From: Hymenobacter taeanensis
GTDB taxonomy: Bacteria; Bacteroidota; Bacteroidia; Cytophagales; Hymenobacteraceae
Reading direction: 5' to 3'
Assembly (NCBI RefSeq): GCF_013137895.1
Contig: NZ_CP053538.1
Location: 1,487,501 to 1,551,500, forward strand
DNA: 64,000 bases
The position numbers and the translations under genes are program-made. The notes below the pieces were generated by a model. It was not told the DNA's origin. It was given only the letters and a program-made list of their open reading frames with translations, and searched no databases. Below, piece by piece: positions 1-64,000 of this stretch; positions within the stretch are counted from its first letter, which is position 1, and every line of letters begins with the position of its first letter.

Positions 1-1777
1 CACGGCGTACCTGGATATTACCTTAGCAAAGGGGTTGAGCTTCCGTTCCACCTTCGGCATTAACTACAACAACAGCCACCCCAAAAACTACCAACCTCAG
101 TACTACCTTGGCCCCACTGACCAGCGGGCCCAGAGCGCGCTCATTGAAACGCGTAACGAGTCGGTGTCGTGGGTATGGTCGAACTACGCCAACTATACCC
201 GGGACCTGGGCAACAACAGCTCCTTCTCCGCCACTCTAGGCCAGGAAGCGCAGCGTAATTATGGTAACGGCATTTCCGTGACGGGCTATAACGTGCCCGC
301 TGATGCCTCCCTACAGTATATCTCGGCTTCGCGCAGCTCCAGCAATGCCATCCGTAGTTCCCAGTATGACAGCGGCCTGCTCTCCTACTTCGGCCGGGCC
401 AATTACAACTTCCACGATAAATACCTACTCACGGGTACGTTGCGCTTCGACCAGACCTCCAAGTTTCTGGGGCCGGTGCGCACGGGCACATTCCCTTCGG
501 TGGGCGCCGCCTGGAACATCTCCAATGAGGATTTCCTGAAAGGCATCTCGGCCATCTCCTCGCTGAAGCTTCGGGCCAGCTACGGGGCGGTAGGTAATCA
601 AAACGCAGCTCCCAACTATGGTTATGCTTCGGTGGCCCGCGGCAACCAGACCTACACTTTTAACGGTGTAGCGGCTCCTGGCCTGGCCATCACGCAGCTC
701 AATAACCCCGACCTGAAATGGGAAACCGCAGTTACTCAGGATGTCGGTATTGATGGAGAGTTCTTCGATAGCAAAGTGACCATCACCGCCGACTACTTTA
801 TCCGGCGCACCAAGGATATGATTGCCCTGCTGCCCGTGCCCGACTACGTAGGCCAGGCCCCAGCCAGCGCCAATGTGGGCTCCCTGCGCAATCGTGGCCT
901 GGAACTGGCCTTGGGCTACCGCAACCAGATCGGGAAGCTGCAATACAACCTGGGGCTGAACTTCACCAAAATCAGCAACGAAATCACGGATCTGGGTGGG
1001 GCTAACCCTATTGCCAGTGGCAACGTGCTGGTGCAAACCGGCAACACTACGCTTACCAGCGTAGGCCGCGAAATAGCGTACTTCTACGGACTGAAGGCCG
1101 ATGGTATTTTCCGCAATCAGAGCGAGGTTGATGCTTACAAAGGTTCTACTGGTGCCCTCATCCAGCCCGGGGCCAAACCCGGCGACGTGAAGTACCGCGA
1201 CGTGAACGGCGACGGTCAGATTACCTCCCTGGATAATACCTACCTGGGTAGTGCTACGCCCAAGTTCACCTATGGTGGCTCCGTTAACCTCTCCTACAGC
1301 AACTTCGACTTTAAGGTGCTGCTGTATGGGGTGCAAGGCGCCGAAGCGGTTAATGGTGGTGCCTTCCGGCTGTTGGAGTCAAGCAATTTTGTGGGTGCCT
1401 GGAACAACTTCTACGCGTCTCGGATGGACCGCTGGACGCCCAGCAACCCCAACGCCAGCCAGCCCCGCGTGACCTCCAACGACACCAACGGCAATGACCG
1501 GTTCAGCAGCCGCTACGTGGAGGATGCCAGCTACCTGCGCGCCCGCAATATGGAACTGGGCTACACGCTGCCTACCACGGTAGGCTCGCGTTTCCACGTG
1601 AACGGGTTCCGGGTATTTGCCTCGGTTGATAACGTGTTTACCATCACCAAATACACCGGCTACGACCCCGAGATTTCTACGGCAGGATTCTACAACAACC
1701 CCCTGGCCTACGGCGTGGATTACGGTAATTACCCTCAGGCCCGCACCTACCGCCTGGGCTTCAACCTGCAGTTTTAA
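1..1777 (+). CDS. SusC/RagA-family TonB-dependent receptor, C-terminal part (5' end outside window)
   Basis: The reading frame is open from base 2, so the gene starts upstream of the window; about 591 residues are visible. The sequence is typical TonB-dependent outer-membrane beta-barrel: alternating aromatic and polar strands, an SVGAAWNIS stretch, an NPDLKWE motif, a GDVKYRDVNGDGQI loop and a C-terminal strand ending GFNLQF. These are seen in SusC/RagA receptors, which import oligosaccharides or peptides across the outer membrane with a SusD partner. The plug and TonB box lie outside the window. The SusD gene starts 21 bp after the stop, so the two are almost certainly co-transcribed. The substrate cannot be read from the sequence. 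Confidence 0.95.
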   Translation, partial: TAYLDITLAKGLSFRSTFGINYNNSHPKNYQPQYYLGPTDQRAQSALIETRNESVSWVWSNYANYTRDLGNNSSFSATLGQEAQRNYGNGISVTGYNVPADASLQYISASRSSSNAIRSSQYDSGLLSYFGRANYNFHDKYLLTGTLRFDQTSKFLGPVRTGTFPSVGAAWNISNEDFLKGISAISSLKLRASYGAVGNQNAAPNYGYASVARGNQTYTFNGVAAPGLAITQLNNPDLKWETAVTQDVGIDGEFFDSKVTITADYFIRRTKDMIALLPVPDYVGQAPASANVGSLRNRGLELALGYRNQIGKLQYNLGLNFTKISNEITDLGGANPIASGNVLVQTGNTTLTSVGREIAYFYGLKADGIFRNQSEVDAYKGSTGALIQPGAKPGDVKYRDVNGDGQITSLDNTYLGSATPKFTYGGSVNLSYSNFDFKVLLYGVQGAEAVNGGAFRLLESSNFVGAWNNFYASRMDRWTPSNPNASQPRVTSNDTNGNDRFSSRYVEDASYLRARNMELGYTLPTTVGSRFHVNGFRVFASVDNVFTITKYTGYDPEISTAGFYNNPLAYGVDYGNYPQARTYRLGFNLQF

Positions 1778-1798
1778 CGATACTTTTACGCACTCAAG

Positions 1799-3409: not shown

Positions 3410-3472
3410 GCCAGGAATAAGGACCCTTTTGCTTTAGAACTGGCCTAGGCATACCTCATAATTAGCTTGCGC

Positions 3473-3967: not shown

Positions 3968-6793
3968 ATGTCTGCTGTTGAGCTCTCTAGCTGTCTCACC
4001 ACCCCGCCTGTTGCCCCCTCCGACGACCAAGCATGGCGCGTATGGGCGGAGAATCATATAGCAGCCCTACAAAATGCCTTGGCCACTGCCCAAGCGCAAG
4101 TTCAGCTTACTGAGGCTCGTTTGGCCGGATTGCTGGAAGCCTTGCCTGGTAGCAACGTGTTAGTTTCAAAGCAGGGCCAGTTAATAACCGCCAACCAGTG
4201 TGGCCTAGATTGGCTTGGCTGCGCAAGTGATAAAAAGTCAGAACCCGATTGCACCGTTGCGTTGCAGCATCACTTTCAAAACTCGGCGGCTTTTGTAACG
4301 CGCGCCCAACAGCTGCGAGCGGCAGGGCAGGCAATGCGGGGCGAAGTGGCAGTGCTAACCGATGGGCAGACTCTGGAGTGGGATTACTTACCACTCGGTG
4401 AAGGCGAGGAGGGACACCTCCTGCGTTTCCAGCCACTGTCGACGACTACTGCTCAGCGCGATTTCTACGAAACCATTCTGCAACAGCTTCCCGTGGAGGT
4501 GGCCGTCTTCGACGCGGAGCACCGCTACCGCTTCGTAAATGTCAATGGCATTCTGAATGCCACCACGCGGGCGTGGGTAATTGGCCATACCGACTTTGAG
4601 TATTGCGCTCATTTCCAGCGCCCCCTGGAACTGGCCCAGGAACGCCACCGCTGCTTTGAGCAGGCGCTGCAAACCCGCGCGCCGATTACGTGGGAAGAAA
4701 TGCAGGAAACGGCCGATGGTACGCAGTATGTGCGGCGGTATTTTCTGCCGGTGTTTGCCCCCGATGGCACCTTGCACATGATGGTAGGCCTGGGCGAGGA
4801 CATTACGGAGCGCCGCCGCGTAGAAAACCAGCTTGCTGAACAACGGGCCTTTTACGAATATGTGCTGGACCATCTCCCGTGTGATGTGGGGGTGTTCGAC
4901 CACAAATTCCGGTACCTGTTTGTAAATGCCAGCGGTATTAAAGACCCGGAGCTGCGCAAATGGGTGATTGGCAAAGACAACTACGCCTACTTCTCCCGTA
5001 CTAATCGCCCGGTTTCCATGGCGCACGAGCGCCATGCGCAGTTTGAGCAGGCAGTTCAGCAACGAGGCCTAGTAACGTACGACGAAACGTTTCTGCGGCC
5101 TGATGGTGACCGGTACATGTACCGGTGCCTGCAACCCGTGTTTCACCCCGATGGCTCCCTGCACATGATTTTGGGCTATGGCCTTGATGTGACGGAGCGC
5201 GTAGCCACGGAGCGGGCCCTGCGCCACGCCAAGCTGGCAGCAGAGTCGGCGGTGCGGGCCCGGGAGCTTTTCCTGGCTAACATGAGCCACGAGATTCGGA
5301 CGCCCATGAACGCTATTCTGGGCATGAGTCAGCTACTGGCTAAAACTCCGCTTACGCCCACCCAAAGCAGCTACCAGCAGGCCATCACCACCTCCGCCGA
5401 CAACCTGCTGGTCATCATCAACGACATCCTGGATCTTTCTAAGCTGGAGGCAGGTAAAATGGTGCTGGAGCAGGTAGGCTTCTCACCCGCCCATCTGCTG
5501 GCTCAGGTAGAGCAGACTCTGCAGTATAAAGCCGCCGAAAAAGGTCTGTGCCTGCGCACGCAAGTGGGGCAGGGCCTGCCGGCGGTACTCCTCGGCGACC
5601 CTTACCGCATTACTCAGGTGCTGCTCAATTTGGCTGGTAATGCCATCAAATTCACGGAAAAGGGTCACGTGGCAGTTTCGTGTGAGGTAGTAGCTGCCGA
5701 CGCACCCAGCGGCACCGTAGATGTGCAATTTGAGGTCAGTGACACCGGCATAGGGATTGAGCCCGAGTTTCTGGCTCATATCTTCCAGGAGTTCAGCCAG
5801 GAAGACGCCTCCGTGACCCGTAAGTTTGGCGGTACGGGCCTAGGCCTGCCCATTTGCCGCAACCTGGTAAAGCTAATGGGCGGCGATGTGCAGCTGGAAA
5901 GCGAAAAGCACCGCGGCACGGTCACCCGCTTTACGCTGCGCCTGCCCGTTGGCACGGCCAATGACCTACTGCCTCAGGCACTGTTACCCGAAGACAGCCC
6001 CCTACGGCAGCACCTGCGCCACAAACACGTGCTGCTGGTAGAAGACAACCGCTTCAACCGCCAGATTGCCAAAACTTTCCTGCAGCAGGCGCACGTGCAG
6101 GTAACTGAGGCCGTGCATGGCGCTGAGGCCCTGGCCCTGGCGCAGGAGCAGTCTTTTGACCTGATTCTGATGGATATTCAGATGCCCATTCTGGATGGGT
6201 ATGGGGCCACTACCGCGCTCCGCCAGCAGTTGCAGCTCACCACGCCCATCATTGCCCTAACGGCTAATGCCATTAAAGGAGAGCGAGAAAAATGCCTGGC
6301 GGCGGGTATGAACGGCTATCTGGCCAAGCCTTTTCAGGAGGCTGAGCTGCTGCGGGTGGTTAGCGAGTGGGTATTGCCGCAGGCCGGGTCAACAACGCCT
6401 GCTTCACAGTTTCCTACCCCTGCCACTCCCACATCAGAGCTATACCGGACTGATGAGCTTCTGAAAGTGGGCCAGGGCGACCTGACCTTCGTGAATTTTA
6501 TGCTGGAAACTTTTGTGGAAAGCAGCGAAGAGGGTTTGCAGGAACTGGCAACAGGGCTTCAGGAAGGTAACGTGGCCCGGCTAAAAAGCGCGGCGCACAC
6601 CCTTAAGCCCAGCCTGGCCCACTTGCACGTGACTCACCTGCTTCCGGCCGTTACCGAGCTCGACCAGTGGCAGGGCGAGTTCCAGCACGAGGCTCTGACG
6701 GCGCTGGTAACTACCATTACCCAGCATTTGCGGGAAGTTATCAGCCATATGCGTTTAGCGTTGGCTGCGCCGCAGACTATAGCTGCTGAATAA
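3968..6793 (+). CDS. Hybrid sensor histidine kinase: PAS x3, HisKA, HATPase, receiver, Hpt
   Basis: A 941-aa cytoplasmic-looking sensor kinase with no clear membrane segment. An N-terminal helix is followed by a degenerate PAS (about 50-155) and two closely similar PAS/PAC units (about 163-283 and 292-410). The dimerisation domain carries phospho-acceptor His441 in SHEIRTP. The ATPase domain has the N box (NLAGNAIKF), DTGIGI and GGTGLGLPI. A receiver domain carries Asp736 in LILMDIQMP and LAKPF. A C-terminal Hpt domain has His877 in SAAHTLKPS. All phosphorelay residues are present, so this is a full His-Asp-His relay in one chain. No response regulator lies next to it, so the final target is unknown. 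It stands alone between SusCD and moeA. Confidence 0.95.
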   Translation: MSAVELSSCLTTPPVAPSDDQAWRVWAENHIAALQNALATAQAQVQLTEARLAGLLEALPGSNVLVSKQGQLITANQCGLDWLGCASDKKSEPDCTVALQHHFQNSAAFVTRAQQLRAAGQAMRGEVAVLTDGQTLEWDYLPLGEGEEGHLLRFQPLSTTTAQRDFYETILQQLPVEVAVFDAEHRYRFVNVNGILNATTRAWVIGHTDFEYCAHFQRPLELAQERHRCFEQALQTRAPITWEEMQETADGTQYVRRYFLPVFAPDGTLHMMVGLGEDITERRRVENQLAEQRAFYEYVLDHLPCDVGVFDHKFRYLFVNASGIKDPELRKWVIGKDNYAYFSRTNRPVSMAHERHAQFEQAVQQRGLVTYDETFLRPDGDRYMYRCLQPVFHPDGSLHMILGYGLDVTERVATERALRHAKLAAESAVRARELFLANMSHEIRTPMNAILGMSQLLAKTPLTPTQSSYQQAITTSADNLLVIINDILDLSKLEAGKMVLEQVGFSPAHLLAQVEQTLQYKAAEKGLCLRTQVGQGLPAVLLGDPYRITQVLLNLAGNAIKFTEKGHVAVSCEVVAADAPSGTVDVQFEVSDTGIGIEPEFLAHIFQEFSQEDASVTRKFGGTGLGLPICRNLVKLMGGDVQLESEKHRGTVTRFTLRLPVGTANDLLPQALLPEDSPLRQHLRHKHVLLVEDNRFNRQIAKTFLQQAHVQVTEAVHGAEALALAQEQSFDLILMDIQMPILDGYGATTALRQQLQLTTPIIALTANAIKGEREKCLAAGMNGYLAKPFQEAELLRVVSEWVLPQAGSTTPASQFPTPATPTSELYRTDELLKVGQGDLTFVNFMLETFVESSEEGLQELATGLQEGNVARLKSAAHTLKPSLAHLHVTHLLPAVTELDQWQGEFQHEALTALVTTITQHLREVISHMRLALAAPQTIAAE

Positions 6794-6824
6794 TTACCTG
6801 AGCACGCTTACCGCTTTGCCCTGC

Positions 6825-8054
6825 TTACCGAAACCGCCACGCCGGCAGCACAGTACCCACCGGGAACAACTCCTGCTCAGGCGGTAGCTCCAGAAATGCC
6901 TGGCTGGGCAGCAGGCTGGCCTGGTCGCCGGAGCCACCAGCCCGCTCGGGGTAGGCTAGCAGACGGCCGTCGGGGGCATGCTCCAGGCTCACGAGCAGGA
7001 AATGTGTGAGCCTGGGCTTGAACTGTACCTCCTGGGCCAGCACCGCCGGTACCGGGCCGCCCAGGCCGGTGGTATCAGCTGCTATGGGTTGCTGCACGGC
7101 CAGCAGCCAGGGGCGGGCGTAGCGGTAGAAGTTCACGAAGGTAGAAACCGGATTGCCGGGCAGCGCAAATACCACGGCCCCGCCGGGTTGCTGCCCAAAC
7201 CAGAAGGGCTTGCCGGGGCGCTGCTGCACCTCATGAAATAGTTGCTCCACGCCCAGCTCCCGCAGTATTTCGGGCAGAAAATCGGCCTTGCCCTTTGACA
7301 CGCCCCCGCTAAGCAACACGGCATCGTAGTCGGCTAGTAAGGCAGGCAGGCCTTGGCGCAGGGCGGCGGGGTCATCGTTGAAGTGGAAGCCCGCAGTTTC
7401 GGCACCGGCTTGTTGGGCGGCGGCTTGCAGCATCAGGCCATTGGAGCGCCGTATCTGGTGGGGCTCAGGCTGCTGGGTAATGGGCACCAGCTCGTCGCCG
7501 GTGCTAACCACGGCCACCCGGGGCCGGCGCGTAACGGCCACGGTGGCGGCGCCCACGGTAGCCCCTACGGCCAGCTCGGCGGGGCCCAGCACGGTGCCAG
7601 CGGGGAGCAGCAGGTCGCCCTGGCGGCGGTCGGCGGCTTGGGCGTGCACATTGTGGCCGGCGCGTGGGGCACCCACTTGCACCTGAGCTAGGCGGCGCCC
7701 GGCTTCATCAGTGCGAATGAGTAGGTCTTCGTAGCGGATAACGGTGTCGGCTCCGGCGGGCAGGGAGGCGCCGGTCATGATTTCTACGGCGGCGTACGGG
7801 TTCTGGAGTGGCCTAGGGGGCTGGCCGGCAAACTGGGTATGCTCAATCAGAAACTCTGTTTGGCCTTCAGCCAGCGCGGCGTAGCGGAGGGCAATGCCGT
7901 CCATGGCCACACGGTTGAAAGGCGGAAAATCCCGGTCGGCATACAGCGGCTCCCGCAGCACCCGCCCAAGGGCTAGGGGTAGAGAAAGGTACTCGGGCGG
8001 CAACGGACGGATGGTAGCAGCAACTAAGCGGGTGGCTTCTTCGACGGAGAGCAT
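6825..8054 (-). CDS. moeA: Molybdopterin molybdotransferase MoeA
   Basis: A 409-aa protein of the usual MoeA length. MoeA inserts molybdate into adenylylated molybdopterin to give Moco. The sequence shows FPPFNRVAMDGIAL near the N-terminus, MTGASLPAGADTVIRYED, the SGGVSKGKAD motif of the MoCF-binding fold and LPGNPVSTFVNF. It is convergent with the kinase gene and divergent from moaC, about 216 bp apart. That gap contains two copies of the TGGCCTA motif and a fragment of an interspersed palindromic repeat. Confidence 0.97.
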   Translation of the reverse strand: MLSVEEATRLVAATIRPLPPEYLSLPLALGRVLREPLYADRDFPPFNRVAMDGIALRYAALAEGQTEFLIEHTQFAGQPPRPLQNPYAAVEIMTGASLPAGADTVIRYEDLLIRTDEAGRRLAQVQVGAPRAGHNVHAQAADRRQGDLLLPAGTVLGPAELAVGATVGAATVAVTRRPRVAVVSTGDELVPITQQPEPHQIRRSNGLMLQAAAQQAGAETAGFHFNDDPAALRQGLPALLADYDAVLLSGGVSKGKADFLPEILRELGVEQLFHEVQQRPGKPFWFGQQPGGAVVFALPGNPVSTFVNFYRYARPWLLAVQQPIAADTTGLGGPVPAVLAQEVQFKPRLTHFLLVSLEHAPDGRLLAYPERAGGSGDQASLLPSQAFLELPPEQELFPVGTVLPAWRFR

Positions 8055-8149
8055 GGCAGGGGAAAGGACGGTATAGAGACGCAGCCGGGCAGTGTAGTGT
8101 TGCGGAAGCTGCTGTTCTGAGAGTGGCGGAGGAGTGGCCTAGGAGTTAA

Positions 8150-8180: not shown

Positions 8181-8270
8181 TCTTAGCGGTTGCGAAAGCA
8201 AAGTACTGGCCTAGCCGGTTTGTTCTACGTTCGCAACGCCCAAACGCAAAGTTGCGTCTTTACCGCTACC

Positions 8271-10114: not shown

Positions 10115-10533
10115 TTACGGATGGGCGGCTACCCACACGTCGCCATCTTCATAAAACTCCTTCTTCCAGATGGTTACCACTTGCTTTAAGGTGTCGATGA
10201 TGTACTGGCAAGCGGCGAAGCTCTCGGCGCGGTGGGGCGTAGATACGGCCACGATAACGGCTACGTCGCCGATGTTGAGGGTGCCTTTGCGGTGGATGAC
10301 GGTTACTTTCCGCAGCATAGGCCACTGCTGCTGCGCTTGCTCGGCTACTTTGCGCAATTGGTGCAGGGCCATGCTGTCGTAGGCCTCGTACTCCAGGCGC
10401 ACCACGGGCGGCCGGTGCTTTTGTTGCGCACCGTGCCAATGAACGTGTTGATAGCGCCGGCGCCATCGTCCTCCACGGTTTGCAGAGCGGCGTGTACGTC
10501 AATGGGCTGAGCGGTTAGGTCGATGGTAATCAA
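10115..10533 (-). pseudogene. moaE: Molybdopterin synthase catalytic subunit MoaE, split by an apparent 1-nt frameshift
   Basis: MoaE, with MoaD, forms the dithiolene of molybdopterin. The first part, from the ATG at 10533, reads GAINTFIGTVRNKSTGRP, then runs into non-family sequence. From about 10405 another frame continues exactly where the family should, with VVRLEYEAYDSMALH, and ends after the WKKEF motif carrying the catalytic lysine. Restoring one base near 10406-10412, in a run reading GGCCGCCCGTGG on the coding strand, would give about 139 aa, a normal MoaE length. Everything else is intact. It could be a true lesion, a sequence error or a recoded gene; an error seems most likely because the pathway is otherwise complete. 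Confidence 0.88.
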
Positions 10534-10638: not shown

Positions 10639-10881
10639 CTAGCCACCGCTTACGGGCGGGATGAGGGCAATTTCGTCGCGCTCATGCAAGGGAGCATCTT
10701 CGGCGGCGTACTCGTTATTAACGGCTACGGCCAGGCTGGAGAGGCGGTTCAGGGCCGGGTACTCCTGCTGCAAACGCGCCAGCAGCTCCTGCACCGACTG
10801 GCCTTCGGGAGCTGCCAGTTCCAGCGTCGGCTGGCCTACGATTTCTCGGGCAATGCCGAACAAAGCAATTTTCAGGTTCAT
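10639..10881 (-). CDS. moaD: Molybdopterin synthase sulfur carrier subunit MoaD
   Basis: An 80-aa ubiquitin-fold protein ending in the diagnostic Gly-Gly (PPVSGG). The C-terminal glycine is adenylylated by an E1-like enzyme and then carries sulfur as a thiocarboxylate to MoaE. The start MNLKIALFGIAREIVG is typical. It lies 105 bp upstream of moaE on the same strand and is divergent from moaA. The likely activating enzyme is the MoeB-like protein at 19240-20355. Confidence 0.96.
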   Translation of the reverse strand: MNLKIALFGIAREIVGQPTLELAAPEGQSVQELLARLQQEYPALNRLSSLAVAVNNEYAAEDAPLHERDEIALIPPVSGG

Positions 10882-12801: not shown

Positions 12802-13098
12802 ATGCGTCCGGAACTCGAACATCTAGAGCGCCTGGAGTATCATCTGCTAGGCCACCCCACCCCCGCTGAAACGGCGCTGTGGCAAGCCCAGCTACAACTT
12901 GACCCGGAGTTGGCCGCCGATGTAGAGCTGCAACAACACCTGTATCATGGCCTTCTTCTAGCAGGACGCCAACAGCTTCGGCAGGAGCTGGAGGAGATTC
13001 ACGTCCAGCTTTACCGCCCCCGGCGCACCTGGCTGCGCCAGGCTGTAGCGCGCCTACACCAGGCTCTGCGGTGGCCTCTGCGGCCCGCTCACCGCTAA
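12802..13098 (+). CDS. Small hypothetical protein coupled to the ECF sigma factor gene
   Basis: 98 aa starting 4 nt after the sigma-factor stop. I do not recognise a family. The N-terminal half has the layout of a soluble anti-sigma domain (LEHLERLEYHLLG, then PAETALWQAQLQLDPELAADVELQQHLYHG). The C-terminal third is rich in Arg and Trp (RPRRTWLRQAVARLHQALRWPLRP) and could form an amphipathic helix. There is no zinc motif and no clear membrane helix. A role as an anti-sigma factor is inferred from position only. Confidence 0.75.
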   Translation: MRPELEHLERLEYHLLGHPTPAETALWQAQLQLDPELAADVELQQHLYHGLLLAGRQQLRQELEEIHVQLYRPRRTWLRQAVARLHQALRWPLRPAHR

Positions 13099-16198: not shown

Positions 16199-16394
16199 AG
16201 CCGCTTGACATTGGCCTACCAGGCCTGCCCAATGTGACCGAAGCTGCTACACTACCTTCGGCTGCCTGCGACTCGGGCGACGCTTCTCATAACAACACAA
16301 AGTACCTGTAGCAGTAGCCCCCCTCACACACCACCAAAGCACTGCTACCCTAGTGGCCTAGCCCGGTCTGTGTTGGTTTTGGTCTCTTACCGGG

Positions 16395-20355: not shown

Positions 20356-20466
20356 AAGTGGGGCGGCGCGCCGTACTATTAAATGTACGAACCGTTGGAT
20401 TACGCCTTCAAACTTAGTTCTGGCCTATAAGGTTAAAGAGCTGCAGCCCTACCCTCTTTCTTTTTT

Positions 20467-21363: not shown

Positions 21364-21390
21364 AAAGAAGGGAAGGTGGCCTAGCCCCCT

Positions 21391-24405: not shown

Positions 24406-24468
24406 ACTTCCCAGTATCAAAAAGGCCCCGCCACTAGCAGTGGCGGGGCCTTTTTGATACTGGGAAGT
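24406..24468. terminator. Very long bidirectional terminator: 30-bp perfect stem
   Basis: The arms 24406-24435 and 24439-24468 are perfect inverted copies with a 3-nt loop (AGC). The stem contains a GC-rich core flanked by A/T runs, so it works as an intrinsic terminator for the oxidoreductase gene and the convergent BLUF gene. A palindromic GGCCTAGGCC follows immediately. Confidence 0.9.
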
Positions 24469-24488
24469 GGCCTAGGCCAGTCAGCTTG

Positions 24489-27995: not shown

Positions 27996-28058
27996 GAACA
28001 GCTATTTCGGGAAACAATAACAGGTGCGTAGGCCACCTAACTAATGGCCTACAGATAC

Positions 28059-49925: not shown

Positions 49926-50144
49926 TGTACGCACAGGCAGCTAGGCCAGGTGCAAGCCAGGCCCTCATCATTACAGCAGACACATATTGCCAACCACTTT
50001 TGCCACCACCACCACCTTCGACAGCTCATGTACGCAGAGTAGCCAGCTGAGAGAACTTACCGGGTTGCCGGCTTGGTTGTGTTTGGAACCTGTGTATCTT
50101 ACCCAGTACTACCTTCCCGCCCTCTGCCCTAATTTGTTTACCGC

Positions 50145-53100: not shown

Positions 53101-53183
53101 AACTGTCGTTTTGAGCAGGGCGAGTAATCTGGAGACTGGCCTAGAAGCTACCCCAGATTCAGCGCTGCACTCGGAATAACAGG
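53101..53183. repeat. REP-like imperfect palindrome
   Basis: The left arm (CTGTCGTTTTGAGCAGGGCG) and the reverse of the right arm (CTGTTATTCCGAGTGCAGCG) are similar, as are the inner CTGGAGA and CTGGGGTAGCTTCTAG segments. It resembles the elements at 13962-14053 and 8150-8180. A TGGCCTA motif sits in its centre. Confidence 0.5.
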
Positions 53184-53186: not shown

Positions 53187-54686
53187 TTACCGCTCCAGCT
53201 TGAAATCCGGGTCTTGGGTCAGGCGCTGGGGCGTGGCAGAAACGGCCCAGCCGGTGGCGTACATCCAGCGCGTCATGCGGGTGAGCTTAGCCACATCAAT
53301 GCGCGAGGCCTCGTCACGGGGCGTGTGGTAGTCGGGGTGCAGTAACGTGGTGAAGAACAACGCCGGGATGCCGGCACGGGCGTAGGGCAGGTGGTCACTG
53401 CGGAAATACCAGCCCTCGGGGTGCTTGGCGTCGTCCCAGGAGTTATCGAGGGTGAACTTGCTGACGTTCTGGTTGGCTTTCAGGGCCATGTTAACCAGGG
53501 CCTCTGAGTTGCGGTGCGGAGCAGTAGAGCCCAGCAGCGCCGCCGAATCGGGGGAGTTGCGGCCCATCATGTCGCCGTTGAGTACGGCCACAATGGAGGA
53601 TTTTGGTACGGTGGGGTGGTCTACAAACCAGCGGGAGCCCAGCAGGCCGCGCTCCTCGGCGCCGTGCCACACAAACAGGGCCGAACGGGCGCCCGGCCGT
53701 TGCTTCCAGGCCCGGCCAATGGCCAGCAGGGCTACGCTTACGGTGGCGTTGTCGTCGGCGCCGTTCCAGATGGAGTCGCCAGCTACGGGCGTCCCGATAC
53801 CGTCGTGGTCGTGGTGGCCGCTGAACAGCACGTTCTCCTTGCGAAGTTCGGGGTCGGTGCCGGGTACGCGGGCCACTACGTTGATGGAGGGATACTCAAA
53901 ATCATTCAGGTCAAGCTCGGCCTGAAAACGGGCTTTCGGCGCCTGCAGCGTAGCAGCCATAGCTTGCCGCACGAGCAGCACTGGAATAGGCGCGGGCGGC
54001 ACCGGCATGGAGGGCAACAAGTACTGCCCATCCTGGTAGCGGTGGCCTACAAACTCCAGGCTGGGCTCAGTCATAGCATCGGCGGCCAGGATGATGCCCG
54101 CCACCCCGCGTGCCCGCAGCGCCGCGCTCTGCTGGCCAATAGCAGCCAGGGCGTAGCGCATACCGCGCAAACTGATGTTGGCAACCGGCAGCGGCGTGGG
54201 CGGCAGCAGCGACATGGCCACAATCTTGCCGCGCAAATCGCGCCGTACAGTATCAGCCAGGGAGTTAAGCCAGACTACCGGGCCAGTGAGGCGGGCGCTG
54301 ATGGGCGCCGTAACCCAGGCGTCTTTCCAGAGCGCGAGGGGTTGGCCGTTTAAGCTCATCCGGGAGTTAGGGGCTACCGTGATGCGGTGCAGGGGGTAGA
54401 GCTGGAAGTAAGTGCCATCGTCGCCGGCGGGTTGCAGGCCGGCGGCGCGGGCACGCTCCGCTACCCAAATGGCGGCGCGCAGCTCATCGGGGGTACCGGC
54501 GCGGCGGCCGCGCATGCTGTCGCTGGCCAATGAGAAAAGGTCGCGGCGAATTTCCGTTTCCCGGATGGCTTCCAGAGCAGGCGGCTCCGTGGGGGATGCT
54601 ACGCCCGAGGTAGAAGGTGTTCGGGCGCAGCCTGCCAGCAGGCCCAGCGCCAGTGCAGCACCCGGCAGAAGAGTAGTAAAACGCAT
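53187..54686 (-). CDS. M28-family metallopeptidase lipoprotein
   Basis: I start at the ATG at 54686 (499 aa), which gives a lipoprotein signal (LALGLLAGC); the frame is open for 60 more residues upstream without family features. M28 zinc ligands are visible in order: His and Asp in SGHHDHDG, Asp in NGADDNATVS, the Glu pair in HGAEERGLLGS, Asp in NGDMMGRNS and His in RSDHLPYARAG. A PA-type insert precedes the catalytic part (LRGMRYALAAIGQQSAALRARGVAGIILAAD, in short pieces). Such proteins are aminopeptidases acting outside the inner membrane. Confidence 0.94.
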   Translation of the reverse strand: MRFTTLLPGAALALGLLAGCARTPSTSGVASPTEPPALEAIRETEIRRDLFSLASDSMRGRRAGTPDELRAAIWVAERARAAGLQPAGDDGTYFQLYPLHRITVAPNSRMSLNGQPLALWKDAWVTAPISARLTGPVVWLNSLADTVRRDLRGKIVAMSLLPPTPLPVANISLRGMRYALAAIGQQSAALRARGVAGIILAADAMTEPSLEFVGHRYQDGQYLLPSMPVPPAPIPVLLVRQAMAATLQAPKARFQAELDLNDFEYPSINVVARVPGTDPELRKENVLFSGHHDHDGIGTPVAGDSIWNGADDNATVSVALLAIGRAWKQRPGARSALFVWHGAEERGLLGSRWFVDHPTVPKSSIVAVLNGDMMGRNSPDSAALLGSTAPHRNSEALVNMALKANQNVSKFTLDNSWDDAKHPEGWYFRSDHLPYARAGIPALFFTTLLHPDYHTPRDEASRIDVAKLTRMTRWMYATGWAVSATPQRLTQDPDFKLER

Positions 54687-54891
54687 AAGCAGAAAGGTAA
54701 AAAGTGGCTTGCCAAAGCAGGCCGAGGGGATGGTGTTTGTGGTGGGGTAAGATAGGCCGCAGGAGGCATCTATCATATTTCCGACAATAAATTGTAGGGT
54801 GGTAATGCAGAAGGAAGCGAGTACCCTGAGCAAGCTTTTAGGTGAGCTAGGATTTTCTCGCTTCACCTGGAGTAATATGGTAGGTAGTGGC

Positions 54892-55320
54892 CTAGGCGTT
54901 GCCTAGCTGCTGCAGCGTTTTCTGGTCTTTGGTGCCGTTGAAGAACTTCTGCAGTACTGCCTCAAATACCGGATCGGGGTTATGAAGCGCGGCAAACAAG
55001 GTCATGGAGGACTTCAGCTTTATATCATCGGGGCTGCCTAGCACTTGGGTAGCGTTGTGGCTGTCCAGAGACAATAGTGCCTGGCAGATAGCTACCAGCC
55101 GGGGGCCCAGCACGGGGTGGTGCAAGTAGGCCTCAGCCTCCTGCCTGTTCTTAATGGCATAGAACTTCGAGGTTTCGCTAAAGCCCAGCCCGTGTATTTG
55201 CGGAAAAATATACCACATCCAGTGGCTACGCTTGCGGCCATTCTTAATTTCGGCCAGGGCCGTGGCGTAATCCGATTCCTGGGCGGCAATAAATCGTTGC
55301 AGGGTGTTATCTAAGGCCAT
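54892..55320 (-). CDS. DUF1810 domain protein
   Basis: 142 aa from the ATG at 55320; an ATG three codons earlier is also possible. Family blocks: LQRFIAAQESDYATALAEIKNG, SHWMWYIFPQIHGLG, FYAIKNRQEAEAYLHHPVLG and DDIKLKSSMTLFA. DUF1810 is a common small cytoplasmic protein of unknown function. Its TAG stop overlaps a TAGGCCACT motif. Confidence 0.92.
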   Translation of the reverse strand: MALDNTLQRFIAAQESDYATALAEIKNGRKRSHWMWYIFPQIHGLGFSETSKFYAIKNRQEAEAYLHHPVLGPRLVAICQALLSLDSHNATQVLGSPDDIKLKSSMTLFAALHNPDPVFEAVLQKFFNGTKDQKTLQQLGNA

Positions 55321-55446
55321 TGCGGTCAATAGTTAGAGGAAAGAAGTAGCCCTTGGTGCTCATGTAGCCTGTAACCAAGCAGGGCTCGGCTAGTTTGGCG
55401 TGTATTGTTTTACTATGTGATGGCCTACCATCATTGTAAGCATCAT

Positions 55447-56160
55447 TTACGGGGCCACTGTAGCAGGCTGTTGCAGTATGGGCTGTAGCACAGCCCACAC
55501 GTTGCGGGCTACCAGGCGGTGACCGGCGGGCGTAGGATGAATCCCGTCGCGCTGGTTGAGTTTCCGGACGCCGCCCACTCCTTCCAGCAGAAAGGGAATG
55601 AGTTTGACCTGATTTTTCTGAGCCAGCTCGGCGTAGAGCTTCTTGAACTGCGTGGCGTAGTCGGGGCCCATGTTGGGTGGTATTTGCATGCCGGCCAGCA
55701 CAATCTGCGCCTGGGGGCTGCGGCGGCGCACGGTATCGATGATGGCCTGCAGGTTGCGGCGCGTATCGGGGAGGGGCAGGCCGCGCAGGCCGTCGTTGCC
55801 GCCCAGCTCTAGCACAAACACGCTCACCGGCTGGCGCAGCACCCACCCCACGCGGTTGCGGCCCCCGGCAGTAGTTTCTCCGCTCAGGCCAGCGTTTACG
55901 ATGGTGTAGGCCAGTCCCGCTGAGTCTAGCTTCTGGCCGATGAGTGCCGGAAAAGCTTCCTCAGGCTCTACCCCGTAGCCAGCCGTGATGCTGTTGCCGA
56001 AGAACAGAATAGTTTGCGGGGCAGCTTTGCTCGTGGCCTTCGGCGGCTGAGCAGCCGTAGTGGCCGCCGCAGTGGTTTGCGTAGTTGTTTGGGAATCGGA
56101 ATTACAGCTGACCAGGGCGCACAGGAGCGCGCCACTCAGCAGGGACAAAACAGTTCTCAT
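55447..56160 (-). CDS. TesA-like SGNH/GDSL esterase lipoprotein
   Basis: I start at the ATG at 56160 (237 aa), because it gives a lipobox (CALVSC). A Thr/Ala-rich linker of about 30 residues precedes the SGNH domain. Block I is FFGNSITAGYG, with the nucleophile Ser. The oxyanion Gly and Asn lie in GLSGETTAGG and LGGNDGLRG, and the Asp-His pair is in DGIHPTPAGH. This is the arylesterase/thioesterase I group. It is divergent from a YbbA/YbbP-type ABC pair, the same neighbourhood as E. coli tesA-ybbA-ybbP. Confidence 0.93.
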   Translation of the reverse strand: MRTVLSLLSGALLCALVSCNSDSQTTTQTTAAATTAAQPPKATSKAAPQTILFFGNSITAGYGVEPEEAFPALIGQKLDSAGLAYTIVNAGLSGETTAGGRNRVGWVLRQPVSVFVLELGGNDGLRGLPLPDTRRNLQAIIDTVRRRSPQAQIVLAGMQIPPNMGPDYATQFKKLYAELAQKNQVKLIPFLLEGVGGVRKLNQRDGIHPTPAGHRLVARNVWAVLQPILQQPATVAP

Positions 56161-57123: not shown

Positions 57124-59726
57124 GCCAGTTACCTTCTGCCGGGCCAGGGGCCGGCTGGTTGTGGCGCATGGCCTGGCGCGACAGCCGCCGCAGCCGGAGC
57201 CGGCTGCTGCTGTTTATCTCGGCCATCGTCCTCGGCATTGCGGCCCTGGTGGGCATCAACGGCTTCGGTGATAACCTGGCCCGCACCATTGATGAGCAGG
57301 CCCAGGAGCTGCTGGGTGCCGACCTGGTGCTGTCGGCGGGCCAGCCGTTTAAGCCAGATTTTCAGCCCGTTATTGGGCCAGCCGTTGTGAGTGCCAGCTA
57401 TGAGGCTGCCTTTCCCTCTCTAGTACAGTTCCCGAAGGGCAATGGTGTGCGGTTGGCACAAGTGCGAGCCATTCAGGGTGACTTCCCCTACTATGGTATA
57501 TGGCTTACTGAGCCCACCGCAGCTGCGCAGGAGTTCCGGCAAGCGTCGCGGACCAACCAGCCTATTGCCCTCGTCGATGATGCCTTGCTCGTGCAGTTTG
57601 CGGCCCGCGTCGGCGACTCTATTCGGGTGGGGCGGGTGGTATTCCGCATTGCGGGGCGGGTGCGCAAAACCCCGGGCCAGTCGGAGTTTAATGCGGCAGT
57701 GGCTCCCACCGTTTTTATTCCCGGCAACTACCAGCTTACCACTACAGGGCAGCCCGACTCCACCTCGCTGCTTGCACGCACGGAGCTCATTAAGCAAGGC
57801 AGCCGGGTTCAGTACCGCATCTATTACAAAATGCAGCCGGGTATAGCCCCGGAGCGGCTGCGCGACCCTTTGATGGACATCCCCAGCCAGGAAAACATTC
57901 GGGCCGAAACGGTAGTCAGCCGTAAGGAGCAAACCGGGCGCGCTTTCTCTGACCTTACTCGCTTTCTGAATCTGGTGGCCTTCGTGGCCCTGCTGCTCGG
58001 GTGCGTGGGCGTGGCCAGCGCCGTGAGCCTGTATGTGCGCGAGAAGGTGGCCTCAGTGGCGGTGTTGCGGTGCTTAGGAGCCAGCGGCCAGCAAGCCTTA
58101 CTCATTTACCTGCTGCAAACTGCGCTTATGGGCTTAGTGGGTGCCGTAGTGGGGGCAGCGCTGGGCACAGCCATTCAGCTGGCGCTGCCGCGGCTATTTG
58201 CGGGCTTTCTGCCGGTAGCCGTGAACATTACCATCTCCTGGAGCGCCGTAGGCCAGGGCATTTTAACGGGGCTGCTGGTGGCGGTGCTGTTTGCCCTGCT
58301 GCCCCTGCTCAGCATCCGGCGCGTGTCGCCGCTGCGCACCTTGCGGGCCTCGTATGAGGAAGACGCCACCCGCCCCGACCCACTCCGCTGGGTGGTATTT
58401 GGGCTGATTGTGCTGTTCATTCTGGGGTTTGCGTATCTGCAGACGCGCGACGTGAAGCAGTCATTAGGGTTTGTGGGCGGCCTGGTGGTGGCCTTTGGCG
58501 TGCTGGCGGGCGTAGGCCAGGGGCTGCGGCTCCTGGTGCGGCGCTTCTTCCCGGTGTCGTGGAGCTACGTGTGGCGCCAGGGCCTGGCCAACCTGTACCG
58601 GCCTAACAACCAGACGCTCCTGCTTACCGTGTCCATTGGGCTGGGGGTATTTCTGATGGCCACGCTCTACCTTCTGCAGGGGCTGTTGCTGAGCCGGGTG
58701 CAGCTTTCAGCCAGCGGTAAGCAGCCCAACCTGGTGTTGTTCGATATTCAGACGGAGCAGAAAGCCGGGGTAGGCCAGTTGCTGCAGCGGCGCGGCCTGC
58801 CCATCATGCAGGAAGTGCCCATTGTTACGATGCGCCTGACCTCCATCAATGGCCGCACCATCTCCCAGATGAAGAAGGACACGGCCAATGGCCCGTCCAC
58901 CCGCATGCTCACCCGTGAGTACCGCGTTACCTACCGCGACACGCTCAACCCGGGCTCCGAGAAGCTGGCCGCTGGCCAAACTCCACGGCTCGGGGCCGAT
59001 GGTATCCCGCGTATTTCCATGGACGAAGATTTTGCCCGCCGGCTCAAGCTTGAGCTCAACGACACCCTGGTGTTCAACGTGCAGGGTGCCCCGCTCACTA
59101 CCATTCTGGGCGGCACCCGCACCATTGACTGGAGCCGGGTGCAAACCAACTTTCTGGTGGTATTTCCGAAAGGCGTGCTGGAACAGGCCCCACAGTTTCA
59201 TGTGCTGCTCACCCGCGTGCCCAACAACCAGGCCCTGGGCGCCGTGCAGCGCGACTTGGTGGCGCAATTCCCCAACGTATCGGCCATCGACCTGGGCCTG
59301 ATTCTGCAAACCCTGGATGATATTCTGAGCAAAATATCCTTTGTGATTCGCTTTATGGCCCTGTTCAGTATTGCCACCGGCGTGGTGGTGCTCATCAGCT
59401 CAGTAGTTATCAGCCGCTACCAGCGCGTGCAGGAGAGCGTGCTGTTGCGCACCCTGGGGGCTAGCCGGCGCCAGATTCTGCGCATTACGCTGGTGGAGTA
59501 TGCCCTGCTAGGCCTGTTGGCGGCCGTGGCCGGACTACTGCTGGCGGTGGGTGCCGCCTGGGCGCTGGCCACCTGGATATTTGAAGTGGCCTTTGTGCCG
59601 CAGCTCTCACCCTTGTTGGTATTAGCAGCCTCTACTACGGCGCTTACGGTACTCATCGGCCTGCTCAATAGCCGCGACGTGCTGACTCGACCGCCGCTCG
59701 AAATTCTGCGCGGCGAGGCGGGCTAG
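57120..59726 (+). CDS. ybbP: ABC transporter permease, YbbP-like (FtsX family)
   Basis: 868 aa. An N-terminal membrane helix (about 25-45), a periplasmic domain to about 270, three helices (about 280-395, including FVALLLGCVGVASAVSLYV), a further pair of helices near 430-470, a large second periplasmic domain and three C-terminal helices (from FMALFSIATGVVVLI). Two FtsX modules in one chain match YbbP. FtsX-type permeases usually move lipophilic cargo or transmit force. Its TAG stop overlaps a TAGGCCACTT motif. Confidence 0.93.
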   Translation: MSQLPSAGPGAGWLWRMAWRDSRRSRSRLLLFISAIVLGIAALVGINGFGDNLARTIDEQAQELLGADLVLSAGQPFKPDFQPVIGPAVVSASYEAAFPSLVQFPKGNGVRLAQVRAIQGDFPYYGIWLTEPTAAAQEFRQASRTNQPIALVDDALLVQFAARVGDSIRVGRVVFRIAGRVRKTPGQSEFNAAVAPTVFIPGNYQLTTTGQPDSTSLLARTELIKQGSRVQYRIYYKMQPGIAPERLRDPLMDIPSQENIRAETVVSRKEQTGRAFSDLTRFLNLVAFVALLLGCVGVASAVSLYVREKVASVAVLRCLGASGQQALLIYLLQTALMGLVGAVVGAALGTAIQLALPRLFAGFLPVAVNITISWSAVGQGILTGLLVAVLFALLPLLSIRRVSPLRTLRASYEEDATRPDPLRWVVFGLIVLFILGFAYLQTRDVKQSLGFVGGLVVAFGVLAGVGQGLRLLVRRFFPVSWSYVWRQGLANLYRPNNQTLLLTVSIGLGVFLMATLYLLQGLLLSRVQLSASGKQPNLVLFDIQTEQKAGVGQLLQRRGLPIMQEVPIVTMRLTSINGRTISQMKKDTANGPSTRMLTREYRVTYRDTLNPGSEKLAAGQTPRLGADGIPRISMDEDFARRLKLELNDTLVFNVQGAPLTTILGGTRTIDWSRVQTNFLVVFPKGVLEQAPQFHVLLTRVPNNQALGAVQRDLVAQFPNVSAIDLGLILQTLDDILSKISFVIRFMALFSIATGVVVLISSVVISRYQRVQESVLLRTLGASRRQILRITLVEYALLGLLAAVAGLLLAVGAAWALATWIFEVAFVPQLSPLLVLAASTTALTVLIGLLNSRDVLTRPPLEILRGEAG

Positions 59727-59865
59727 GCCACTTGTTTACTGGGTGCAGAAGCCTTGCCGTTTCCAATAACAACCTTATGATTACTAGCACGTTAAAGACC
59801 TGCCGCAGCACAACAGGCAACTGGTGTTTCCTCGGCTATGTTTCATGCCCTTAATTCCCTTCCCC

Positions 59866-60336: not shown

Positions 60337-61002
60337 ATGAACGACCCCGAAATCCGCGCCCTGCTCTACCCGCTACTCACTGAAGGCGTGTACGTTGATG
60401 AGCTGCCCACCGGCACTACCCGCGCCGATGTAGTGCACATCACGCCGGCCTTCATGCACGGCTACGAGGTAAAAGGCGACGGCGACACCCTGCAGCGGGT
60501 GGCGAACCAGCTCCGCTGCTATGGCGAGGTGTATGACTTCGTGACGTTCATCGTCACGGAGAAGCACCTGGCTAAGCTACTGCCGCTGGTACCCGAATGG
60601 GTGGGCGTGCTGGTGGCCGCACCGGGTCAGGAGCTGCGGGTGCACCGGGCGGCCTCCTACAACGCTACCGTAGAGCGCGCCCCGCTGGCTGGCCTGCTGT
60701 TACTGGAAGAAGTAAAGCAATACTTGCTGGCCTTAGGCCTCTCGGGCGTGAGCACGTTGCGGCGGCGTGAGGTCATGACCTTCTTGCGTACTACCCAACT
60801 GGTGCCTCTTTCCGGCCTGGCCCAGTACGTACGGGAGCGACTAATAGCGCGCCTACCCGAGCGTCTGCTGCACCGCGCTGAGCGCAAAGTCGAGCGGCAG
60901 CGCATCGGGAACCGGCGCCGTCGCAAGCCTACCCACAAGGCCAAGGTGAAGGCAAAGGCAAAACCTAAAGCCTCCAAACGCAAGCCGACAAAAGTGGCCT
61001 AG
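60337..61002 (+). CDS. sce7726-family protein with a basic C-terminal tail
   Basis: 221 aa from the ATG at 60337; the upstream extension lies over the terminator. The N-terminal domain reads MNDPEIRALLYPLL, then DELPTGTTRADVVHI and HGYEVKGDGDTLQRV, which places an Asp and a GxExK pair as in the PD-(D/E)XK nuclease fold seen in sce7726 proteins. QLRCYGEVYDFVTFIV follows. The last 30 residues are a Lys/Ala/Pro-rich tail like histone H1. DNA binding or cleavage is plausible but unproven. The stop overlaps a GTGGCCTAG motif. Confidence 0.78.
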   Translation: MNDPEIRALLYPLLTEGVYVDELPTGTTRADVVHITPAFMHGYEVKGDGDTLQRVANQLRCYGEVYDFVTFIVTEKHLAKLLPLVPEWVGVLVAAPGQELRVHRAASYNATVERAPLAGLLLLEEVKQYLLALGLSGVSTLRRREVMTFLRTTQLVPLSGLAQYVRERLIARLPERLLHRAERKVERQRIGNRRRRKPTHKAKVKAKAKPKASKRKPTKVA

Positions 61003-61009: not shown

Positions 61010-62146
61010 CTATAAGGGTAGCAGCAGCTGGCGACCGGGAGTGTCTTCTCCCATCGTATCAAGGTTAGATAGCGAGGCGCCTAGCAGCCGGATGCCCTTA
61101 GGCAGGGGCCATAGGGAGCTGAGCACCTCCCGCCCTACTTGCTCTAGCGCGGCTTGGCTGGTAAAGGGCGCGGGGCAGGTGCGGCTGCGCGTGAGCAGCT
61201 GAAAATCGTTGTACTTCACCTTCACCGTGAGTGTACGCCCCAGAACGCCCGTGCGCTCACAGTAGCTCCACACTGACTCCAGCGCCGGCTGTAGGCCACT
61301 CATTAACTCCTCCTGAGTAGTTAGGTCTTCCTCAAAGGTGGTTTCGGAGCCCACCGATTTGCGGACCCGGTCGGCTACTACGGGGCGGTTATCGCGGGCG
61401 CGGGCAATGGCGTAGTAGTAGGCGCCGGCCTTGCCAAAGTTCTGGCGCAGAAAGGTTTCTGTTTGCTGGCGCAAGTCCCAGCCCGTGAAAATGCCCAACT
61501 GATTCATGCGCGCCGCCGTTACGTGCCCAATGCCATGGAACTGGCCTACCATGAGGGCTTCTACGAAGGCCAAGCCCTGCGCGGGCTTTATCACAAACTG
61601 CCCGTTGGGCTTGCGGTAATCAGAGGCCAGCTTGGCCAGAAACTTATTGTAGGAGATGCCCGCTGAGGCGGTGAGTTGGGTTTTCTCCAGAATTTTGGCC
61701 CTGATTTCCTGAGCCACCTGCGTAGCCGAGGCAAGCTGCTTCAGGTTGTGCGTCACGTCGAGGTAAGCCTCATCCAATGATACCGGCTCAATAAGAGGCG
61801 TGTATTCCGCAAAGATCTCCCGAATCTGCAGCGACACTTCCTTATACACCTCAAACCGGGGCTTCACGAAGATCAGCTCAGGGCACTTGCGCTTCGCCAC
61901 TGAAGAGGCCATGGCTGACCGGACCCCAAACTGCCGCGCCTCGTAGCTGGCGGCCGCTACCACACCGCGCTGCCGCGAGCCGCCCACCGCTACGGGCCGG
62001 CCCCGCAGGGCGGGGTTATCGCGCTGCTCCACAGAGGCGTAGAACGCATCCATGTCCAGATGAATGATTTTCCGGCTTTCTTCCTGCTCCACTAAATCGG
62101 GTACCTGACTACCCCACGAAGATACAACTCGGCCGCCGTGCCTCAA
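61010..62146 (-). CDS. dinB: DNA polymerase IV (Y family)
   Basis: 378 aa as drawn; a GTG at 62092 would start closer to the usual N-terminus. Y-family catalytic motifs are present: HLDMDAFYASVEQ with the metal-binding Asp, SLDEAYLDVT with the second acidic pair, and YNKFLAKLASDYRKPNG in the palm/thumb. Pol IV copies past damaged bases and is often SOS-induced; I did not find an obvious LexA box upstream. It is convergent with the sce7726 gene, 7 bp apart. Confidence 0.96.
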   Translation of the reverse strand: MRHGGRVVSSWGSQVPDLVEQEESRKIIHLDMDAFYASVEQRDNPALRGRPVAVGGSRQRGVVAAASYEARQFGVRSAMASSVAKRKCPELIFVKPRFEVYKEVSLQIREIFAEYTPLIEPVSLDEAYLDVTHNLKQLASATQVAQEIRAKILEKTQLTASAGISYNKFLAKLASDYRKPNGQFVIKPAQGLAFVEALMVGQFHGIGHVTAARMNQLGIFTGWDLRQQTETFLRQNFGKAGAYYYAIARARDNRPVVADRVRKSVGSETTFEEDLTTQEELMSGLQPALESVWSYCERTGVLGRTLTVKVKYNDFQLLTRSRTCPAPFTSQAALEQVGREVLSSLWPLPKGIRLLGASLSNLDTMGEDTPGRQLLLPL

Positions 62147-62255: not shown

Positions 62256-62300
62256 TAGGCCACTTCCGGTAACCGGAGCAGCCGGGCGGCTAGTGGCCTA
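62256..62300. repeat. Inverted pair of the TAGGCCACT motif at the DUF3850 gene end
   Basis: TAGGCCACT at 62256-62264 and AGTGGCCTA at 62292-62300 are perfect inverted copies 27 bp apart; the second contains the TAG stop of the DUF3850 gene on the minus strand. Confidence 0.6.
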
Positions 62301-63275: not shown

Positions 63276-63839
63276 ATGTCCATTACCTCCGGAACCCCTG
63301 TCATTCTGCAACGTCTGCGCAGTGAAACCCGCCCCTATCACGACGCCCTGGAGCAGAATGAATTCAACCAGTCTTTATCGGCTGGTCAGGCCTCAGCCGG
63401 AGCAACGCAGTGGTTTCTGGCTAAGCTATACGGTTTTCTGAAGCCCTATGAGGCGCGGCTAGACAACCACAGCTTTGGGCCGGCCTGGGACATAGAGCAG
63501 CGCCACCGGGCCCACCTGATTCTGGCCGACGTACCTACCAATGCCCCGTTACCCCTGTGCCCCGATATGCCGCCACTTACCACCTGGCCCCAGCTACTGG
63601 GGGCCATGTACGTACTGGAGGGCTCTACTCTTGGGGGCCAGGTAATTACGCGGCAGCTTGCCCAGGCGGGCATTGGGAGCCGCACCTACTTTACGGGCTA
63701 CGCCGAGCAGACGGGCCCCATGTGGAAGCGCTTCTGCCAGCTCCTTGCGGAGGAAGCCACCCCTGCCAACCAGGCCGAGATTGTAGCGTCGGCTAGCCTC
63801 ACGTTTCAAAAACTACACGCGTGGATCAATCAGCCGTAA
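63276..63839 (+). CDS. bphO: Biliverdin-producing heme oxygenase
   Basis: 187 aa from the ATG at 63276; a frame extending 27 residues upstream has no family features. Heme oxygenase opens haem to biliverdin, CO and iron. The proximal His is in TRPYHDALEQ near residue 22, and the distal helix is represented by AMYVLEGSTLGGQVI, a GxxxG-containing segment typical of bacterial forms. The bacteriophytochrome start overlaps its last 19 nt, so biliverdin for the photoreceptor is the evident purpose. Confidence 0.93.
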   Translation: MSITSGTPVILQRLRSETRPYHDALEQNEFNQSLSAGQASAGATQWFLAKLYGFLKPYEARLDNHSFGPAWDIEQRHRAHLILADVPTNAPLPLCPDMPPLTTWPQLLGAMYVLEGSTLGGQVITRQLAQAGIGSRTYFTGYAEQTGPMWKRFCQLLAEEATPANQAEIVASASLTFQKLHAWINQP

Positions 63840-64000
63840 TATATTCCGATGAGAGCCTGATTAATGCTCCTATCACGCTCACCAATTGCGACCGGGAGCC
63901 CATTCATATTCCGGGCTCGGTGCAGCCCTACGGCTTTTTGCTGTGCCTTGACCCCGACACCAAGCAAGTGGTGCACGCCAGCGAAAACACGCAGGCTCTT
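63821..64000 (+). CDS. bphP: Bacteriophytochrome, N-terminal part (3' end outside window)
   Basis: Sixty residues are visible. The first possible start after an in-frame stop (TAG at 63794) is the GTG at 63821, overlapping bphO by 19 nt. The sequence TNCDREPIHIPGSVQPYGFLL is the signature of the phytochrome PAS domain, and Cys23 matches the biliverdin-attaching cysteine (Cys24 in DrBphP). The downstream GAF, PHY and output domains lie beyond the window, so the signalling output cannot be read. Confidence 0.93.
   Translation, partial: MDQSAVIYSDESLINAPITLTNCDREPIHIPGSVQPYGFLLCLDPDTKQVVHASENTQAL

Follow-up and report, generated by a model that had tools for sequence, protein, structure and literature searches.

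The 64,000-nt stretch of Hymenobacter taeanensis DNA analysed here (the window; positions 1,487,501-1,551,500 of a one-contig genome of 4,879,662 bp) carries 73 copies of the heptamer TGGCCTA or its complement TAGGCCA. The word is enriched throughout the genome independently of codon usage, shows no strand polarity, and is maintained at its sites between sister species. Other clades of the genus bear other words, and these words are clade-specific dialects. These bacteria seem to have some means of reading or spreading a short signature throughout the genome, and by resemblance the words may work like the highly iterated palindrome (HIP) sites of cyanobacteria; a HIP-like repair or recombination drive, exerted by a putative sequence-specific reader, is given a probability of about 0.4.

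Exact counting in the window gives 59 GGCCTA and 49 TAGGCC (108 hexamers), and 43 TGGCCTA and 30 TAGGCCA (73 heptamers, coding and non-coding), the same totals as those estimated by eye in the initial annotation. An order-2 Markov model predicts 14.6 copies of the heptamer, which has the highest z among all 7-mers of the window. The open reading frames (ORFs; longest-first calls of at least 100 codons rather than curated genes, leaving 6.5 kb non-coding) hold 53 sites, against 11.1 +/- 3.1 (maximum 24 in 300 shuffles) when synonymous codons are permuted inside each ORF, with the proteins and the per-gene codon usage kept. The remaining 20 sites are not wholly within ORFs. The excess over codon shuffles is present in both coding orientations and in the gaps, where TGGCCTA is denser than in genes. 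In the whole genome there are 2454 forward and 2417 reverse copies (4871 in 4.88 Mb, roughly one per kilobase), while the reversed word, taken as control, occurs 231 + 187 = 418 times. The excess first proposed from the letters of the window therefore survives both the Markov and the codon-preserving check, is present on both strands and in gaps, and persists beyond the window, and the class to which the word had been assigned, that of the DNA uptake sequences (DUS), uptake signal sequences (USS) and HIPs, is right, as is the genus. Codon usage as the cause of the excess is ruled out by the shuffles. The earlier remark that the copies use CTA for leucine holds in so far as CTA is part of some sites, but only 19 of the 194 CTA codons of the window ORFs lie within TGGCCTA.

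Among 120 Hymenobacter genomes (G000 being that of the window), TGGCCTA is enriched in four: G000 (4871 copies), H. fodinae G024 (7212), H. wooponensis G119 (7232) and G026 (7638). The comparison with related genomes thus extends the enrichment to some relatives, but not to the other 116 genomes (432-1361 copies). The MalQ protein (943 residues, encoded in the window at 33554-36385) was found in 119 of the 120 genomes, and its identity ranks the four enriched genomes first (100, 93, 92 and 86%), followed by G044 with 84%. In a tree of the 30 best-matching MalQ proteins, the four form one clade with a support of 100/98.

The window sites are kept intact in syntenic alignments at 28 of 43 positions in G026, 38 of 57 in G024 and 41 of 52 in G119, compared with 0.27-0.32 for control 7-mers of equal composition in the same alignments. 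Over the 12 ordered within-clade pairs the intact fraction is 0.47-0.79 (control 0.25-0.35), with the lowest values towards G000; retention between sister species is about 1.7-2.5 times that of the matched words. In the outgroups it is below the control (3 of 29 sites in G044 and 4 of 24 in G036). The sites originated largely by substitution: in 26 sites viewed in alignment the differences are mostly substitutions, with few beside small gaps and no inserted cassette seen, and at 20 of the 29 sites of G000 compared with G044 at least two bases differ. The amino-acid identity at motif codons (0.76-0.84) is close to that at other codons (0.81-0.83), and hence no strong protein cost is claimed. 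The sites lost in one species only number 9 in G000, 4 in G024 and 0 in G119, with equal losses of control words (117-120); these small numbers hint that upkeep may be relaxed in the window's species.

Position counts in the window clade give the consensus (R)-A-S-W-GGCC-T-A-S with weak flanks. The favoured form A(G/C)TGGCCTA noted in the initial annotation has a similar extension, although the real one is wider (A-S-W-GGCCTA-G/C). In its fuller form, RASWGGCCTAG, the word is one half-site of the palindrome TGGCCTAGGCCA, which arises where convergent sites lie in pairs offset by 5 bases, twice in the window. In G026, TGGCCTAG occurs 494 times against 5.3 expected from the sister species G082, G036 and G044, and the palindrome TAGGCCTA 170 times against 2.4 (both strands in each case). 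The 73 copies of TGGCCTA/TAGGCCA, counted exactly over 1..64000 on both strands, are the following.

24468..24479, full palindrome TGGCCTAGGCCA, two overlapping motif sites: 24468..24474 (+), 24473..24479 (-)
25458..25469, full palindrome TGGCCTAGGCCA, two overlapping motif sites: 25458..25464 (+), 25463..25469 (-)
237..243, -, motif site
849..855, -, motif site
1704..1710, +, motif site
3441..3447, +, motif site
4201..4207, +, motif site
7809..7815, +, motif site
8135..8141, +, motif site
8207..8213, +, motif site
10318..10324, -, motif site
10832..10838, +, motif site
12848..12854, -, motif site
14606..14612, +, motif site
14881..14887, -, motif site
16212..16218, +, motif site
16354..16360, +, motif site
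18174..18180, +, motif site
18474..18480, -, motif site
18578..18584, -, motif site
20174..20180, +, motif site
20421..20427, +, motif site
21000..21006, +, motif site
21377..21383, +, motif site
22141..22147, +, motif site
28029..28035, -, motif site
28045..28051, +, motif site
30103..30109, -, motif site
32163..32169, -, motif site
33004..33010, +, motif site
33588..33594, -, motif site
33831..33837, +, motif site
34954..34960, +, motif site
35328..35334, -, motif site
35614..35620, +, motif site
36084..36090, -, motif site
36214..36220, +, motif site
36912..36918, +, motif site
38080..38086, +, motif site
38248..38254, +, motif site
40204..40210, +, motif site
41583..41589, +, motif site
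42790..42796, +, motif site
42891..42897, -, motif site
43773..43779, +, motif site
43939..43945, +, motif site
44302..44308, +, motif site
44637..44643, -, motif site
45950..45956, -, motif site
48415..48421, -, motif site
48725..48731, +, motif site
48748..48754, -, motif site
49942..49948, -, motif site
50405..50411, +, motif site
50962..50968, -, motif site
51601..51607, +, motif site
52156..52162, -, motif site
53137..53143, +, motif site
54043..54049, +, motif site
54888..54894, +, motif site
55421..55427, +, motif site
55907..55913, -, motif site
58249..58255, -, motif site
58513..58519, -, motif site
58771..58777, -, motif site
59724..59730, -, motif site
60995..61001, +, motif site
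61292..61298, -, motif site
61542..61548, +, motif site
62256..62262, -, motif site
62294..62300, +, motif site

With local GC skew as a proxy for the replication strand, no polarity is seen for TGGCCTA (138:159 in G000 and 308:332 in G026), and TGGCCTAG shows no bias to the G-rich strand (73:64 and 183:179, respectively). Chi and the FtsK-orienting polar sequences (KOPS) are iterated GC-rich words of similar length, and GGGGTAG, the word of another Hymenobacter clade, shows a mild preference for the G-rich strand (251:199 in G082); nevertheless, a recombination hotspot or an FtsK-orienting sequence is a very improbable explanation, given the unbiased orientation of TGGCCTA and TGGCCTAG and the change of words between sister clades. 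The spacing of TGGCCTA is Poisson-like, no even spacing was found when looked for, and the site density increases with GC. The words could also be sites of an abundant chromosome-organising or nucleoid protein, under weak direct selection at each of them. The palindromic forms suggest a dimer, and the dense coverage and the higher density in gaps would fit, but close relatives lack the word (116 of 120) or have another, the spacing is random rather than even, and selection would have to be individually effective at thousands of single sites, which makes this explanation improbable. Close inverted pairs are frequent among DUS and USS; here the site pairs within 60 bp number 86 against 75.1 +/- 7.8 at random in G026 and 20 against 17.8 +/- 3.8 in G000, with no clear excess overall, though the convergent pairs offset by 5 bases do occur. 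One locus of G026 (L273) contains a site-free stretch of ~12.5 kb (about 5000-17500), with a Rep3 plasmid initiator at 5674-7062, flanked by 6 sites in 5 kb on the left and 1 in 2.5 kb on the right. From this one plasmid-like island, foreign DNA seems to be without the word.

Different words are found in the named loci of different species. A de novo word search in 29 named Hymenobacter loci (~13-23 kb), judged by eye, gave a clear word in 11, and no clear word in the other 18, with weak signals such as GGCTACC. In sampled DNA, an excess over codon shuffles, on coding sequence of either orientation as well as in gaps, was observed for GGGGTAG in G082, G036 and G027 (weak in G044), for CCTAGG in G071, G087, G055 and the H. 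cavernae locus, and for GCTAGCCC/GGCTAGCC in G028, the sole genome sampled with that word. Over the 120 genomes, GGGGTAG is enriched in 14 (3370-7943 copies), stands in between in G044 (2140) and does not exceed 1668 in the remaining 105. H. setariae and H. polaris bear CCTAGG, and H. latericoloratus bears GGGGTAG. CCTAGG reaches 5585-8806 in six genomes and at most 888 in 110; its counts of 1209-2331 in the window clade are probably due in part to the presence of CCTAGG within GGCCTAGG. The genome-wide counts of TGGCCTA, CCTAGG and GGGGTAG are sharply bimodal, and 24 of the 120 genomes (4 with TGGCCTA, 14 with GGGGTAG and 6 with CCTAGG, hereafter the carriers) have one of the three in force, or 26 with G028 and the intermediate G044. 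The density in the enriched genomes is about 0.7-1.5 sites per kb. All four words (TGGCCTA, GGGGTAG, CCTAGG and GGCTAGCC) contain CTA/TAG; CCTAGG and GGCTAGCC are palindromes, the window clade has a half-site, and GGGGTAG is not palindromic. CCTAGG, the sole word counted outside the genus (family sample of 200 genomes, 84 from five other genera), also occurs 5325-6212 times in three of the eight genomes sampled from one other genus of the family (G123, G132 and G144).

Several further words were observed. In two sampled genomes of the other genus (L361 and L362), the form MCCTAGGK has the same flanks as in G071/G087. GGCTACC/CCGGTAG is weakly enriched in the H. rigui and H. pini loci (L044 and L050), possibly as a faint relative of GGGGTAG. 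Three loci from distant Bacteroidetes metagenome-assembled genomes (L055, L056 and L060) have TCCTGAA/TTCAGGA as one of their top words, with coding counts of 14-23 against 4.5-7.8 by codon shuffle; this is perhaps another iterated word.

The MalQ tree places the window genomes and six GGGGTAG genomes in two distinct clades, each with support; the sister of the GGGGTAG clade consists of six genomes without any of the three words. The aligned GGGGTAG sites of G044 are common to G036 in 12 of 20 cases, whereas G044 keeps 12 of the 40 sites of G036, and G026 keeps 4 of 45, which is about the control level. From these comparisons we infer that GGGGTAG may be the ancestral dialect, which would now be in decay in G044 and would have given way to another word in the window clade. 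The CCTAGG sites of G071 and G087 are largely common (63 of 84 and 65 of 94; control 0.40-0.41). G055 has only 16-25% in common with either of them (14-20 sites per comparison), and since this is below the control (0.30-0.34), G055 seems to have acquired the word on its own.

The chief rival explanation is an uptake-like drive, in which a surface DNA receptor would prefer word-bearing fragments, and transformation would spread and maintain the word, as happens with the DUS of Neisseriaceae and the USS of Pasteurellaceae. It agrees with the density on both strands, with the lack of polarity of TGGCCTA, with the maintenance of sites between species and with the absence of the word from the plasmid-like island. 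The division into dialects by clade, around three core bases that do not vary, recalls that of the DUS, whose core is CTG according to the available portion of PMC3630211. ComEC is present in 119 of the 120 genomes, including that of the window (the miss, G109, is 82% complete), and naturally competent Bacteroidota exist, such as Riemerella (PMC8459023, available portion). The near-universal ComEC, however, is uninformative on motif carriage. The type IV pilus ATPase PF00437, the one pilus part searched (14 candidates scored per genome), is over the cut-off in three of the 120 genomes and in no carrier, with sub-threshold matches in nine further genomes, including the carrier G002; as a control, the search gave a match in all 14 known genomes, over the cut-off in 13. 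Moreover, the known DUS and USS differ from palindromic words, close pairs are not in clear excess overall, and no report of Hymenobacter competence was found in the open-licence literature. On balance, the uptake-like drive is rather unlikely. A strong T2SSE/PilB-type ATPase was observed only in G112, G037 and G100 among the 120 genomes (L301-L303).

Vsr (PF03852) was considered as a driver and rejected, being present in 25 of the 120 genomes but in only three of the 24 carriers. Although Dcm/Vsr-type repair can enrich a word, and CTA codons belong to some sites, single-base conversion in the motif context (Vsr-type repair or deamination) or plain codon usage is hardly a credible source of the words. 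Besides the codon shuffles and the distribution of Vsr, the common differences of two or more bases from the outgroup speak against it, and so do the one-base neighbours of TGGCCTA in G026, which stand at 0.62-1.60 of the sister-species level, with a sole rise for AGGCCTA (7.6); as none is strongly depleted, a single-base converter is not needed.

Three methyltransferase families were followed over the 120 genomes. PF00145 (C5) is found in 45 genomes and 10 of the 24 carriers, and in the window clade only in G024 and G119. PF01555 (N4/N6) is found in 72 genomes and 11 carriers, and in the window clade only in G026. PF07669 (Eco57I-type) is found at E 0.001 in 106 genomes and 19 carriers, and is missing from the carriers G002, G027, G030, G110 and G119, the last of the window clade, as well as from G044. 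Sites of restriction-modification systems are avoided or neutral in the genome, whereas TGGCCTA is strongly over-represented. No gene setting the dialect was found among the families searched (PF00437, ComEC, PF03852, PF00145, PF01555 and PF07669). As far as they were tested, the uptake and methyltransferase systems of the textbook each lack one feature that defines them, in view of the PF00437 and methyltransferase results, and the specific mechanisms put forward in the initial annotation (pilus uptake or a methyltransferase target) are unsupported.

Under the HIP-like drive, the word would be recognised by a putative DNA-reading factor, be it a methyltransferase, a nicking enzyme or some other protein that binds DNA, coupled to mismatch repair or homologous recombination. 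A heteroduplex with the perfect word on one strand would be resolved towards the word, so that thousands of sites, roughly one per kilobase, would accumulate and persist. We propose that clades hold readers of differing specificity, whose targets would have the CTA/TAG core in common, and that this would give rise to the dialects; where a reader is lost or swapped, the old sites would decay and a new set would grow. The reader is presumed, and so are its link with repair or recombination and whatever benefit the cell would draw from it. The bimodal counts, the excess over codon shuffles, the retention of sites and the apparently independent gain of CCTAGG are counted in favour of such a drive, together with the palindromes CCTAGG, GGCTAGCC and TGGCCTAGGCCA, whose form would suit recognition by a symmetric DNA enzyme. 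Several points weigh against it. Neither GGGGTAG nor the heptamer TGGCCTA is palindromic; none of PF00145, PF01555 and PF07669 is common to all four window-clade genomes (PF02384 and PF02086 were not searched); and the one-base neighbours in G000 range, in small numbers, from 0.26 (2 copies against 8) to 2.73 (18 against 7). In addition, HIP words generally have a matching orphan methyltransferase, with exceptions noted in the available portion of PMC4390886.

The words resemble the cyanobacterial HIP1 and its alternates in having palindromic forms, in switching as a whole between clades and in a core common to the dialects. As described by Elhai in 2015 (PMC4390886, same portion), the HIPs occur about once per kb on both strands, have palindromic forms, and come in strain-specific alternates with a common element, much as the Hymenobacter sister species have words that look unrelated but agree in their core; methylation-directed repair was proposed as the driver of the HIPs. 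The densities in the enriched Hymenobacter genomes fall inside the HIP range of about 0.5-2.5 sites per kb. The Hymenobacter words differ in bearing CTA/TAG, in two non-palindromic dialects, in the host (Bacteroidota), and in that the motif is not tracked by any of the methyltransferase families tested. DUS (Neisseriaceae) and USS (Pasteurellaceae) are similar in copy number and in the absence of strand polarity of the window word, but the carriers here are without a type IV pilus ATPase over the cut-off and include palindromic dialects.

Apart from the motif, a TamL-like outer-membrane lipoprotein in the window is split over two overlapping minus-strand ORFs (25543-27995). The ORF at 26565-27995 matches profile positions 2-413 and that at 25543-26568 matches 435-747, and the split may be a frameshift, a sequencing error or a true one.

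Neisseriaceae, Pasteurellaceae and cyanobacteria are known to have iterated genome words that come in dialects. No description of one in Bacteroidota was found in the open-licence literature on iterated palindromes, uptake sequences, Hymenobacter transformation or methylome, or the words themselves. It is tentatively suggested that the words are part of an undescribed, horizontally variable system of clade-specific self-signatures in Hymenobacteraceae, with a CTA/TAG core and a drive that would work without a type IV pilus and without a conserved methyltransferase. One genus, with 24 carriers among 120 genomes, offers what appear to be several separate gains, a complete replacement and a species whose word is decaying, and thus the birth and death of words can be traced among close relatives. 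What creates and maintains iterated words (uptake, repair or selection) is testable in a few type strains. If the self-signature reading is true, the wholesale switching of words between sister clades may isolate them genetically.

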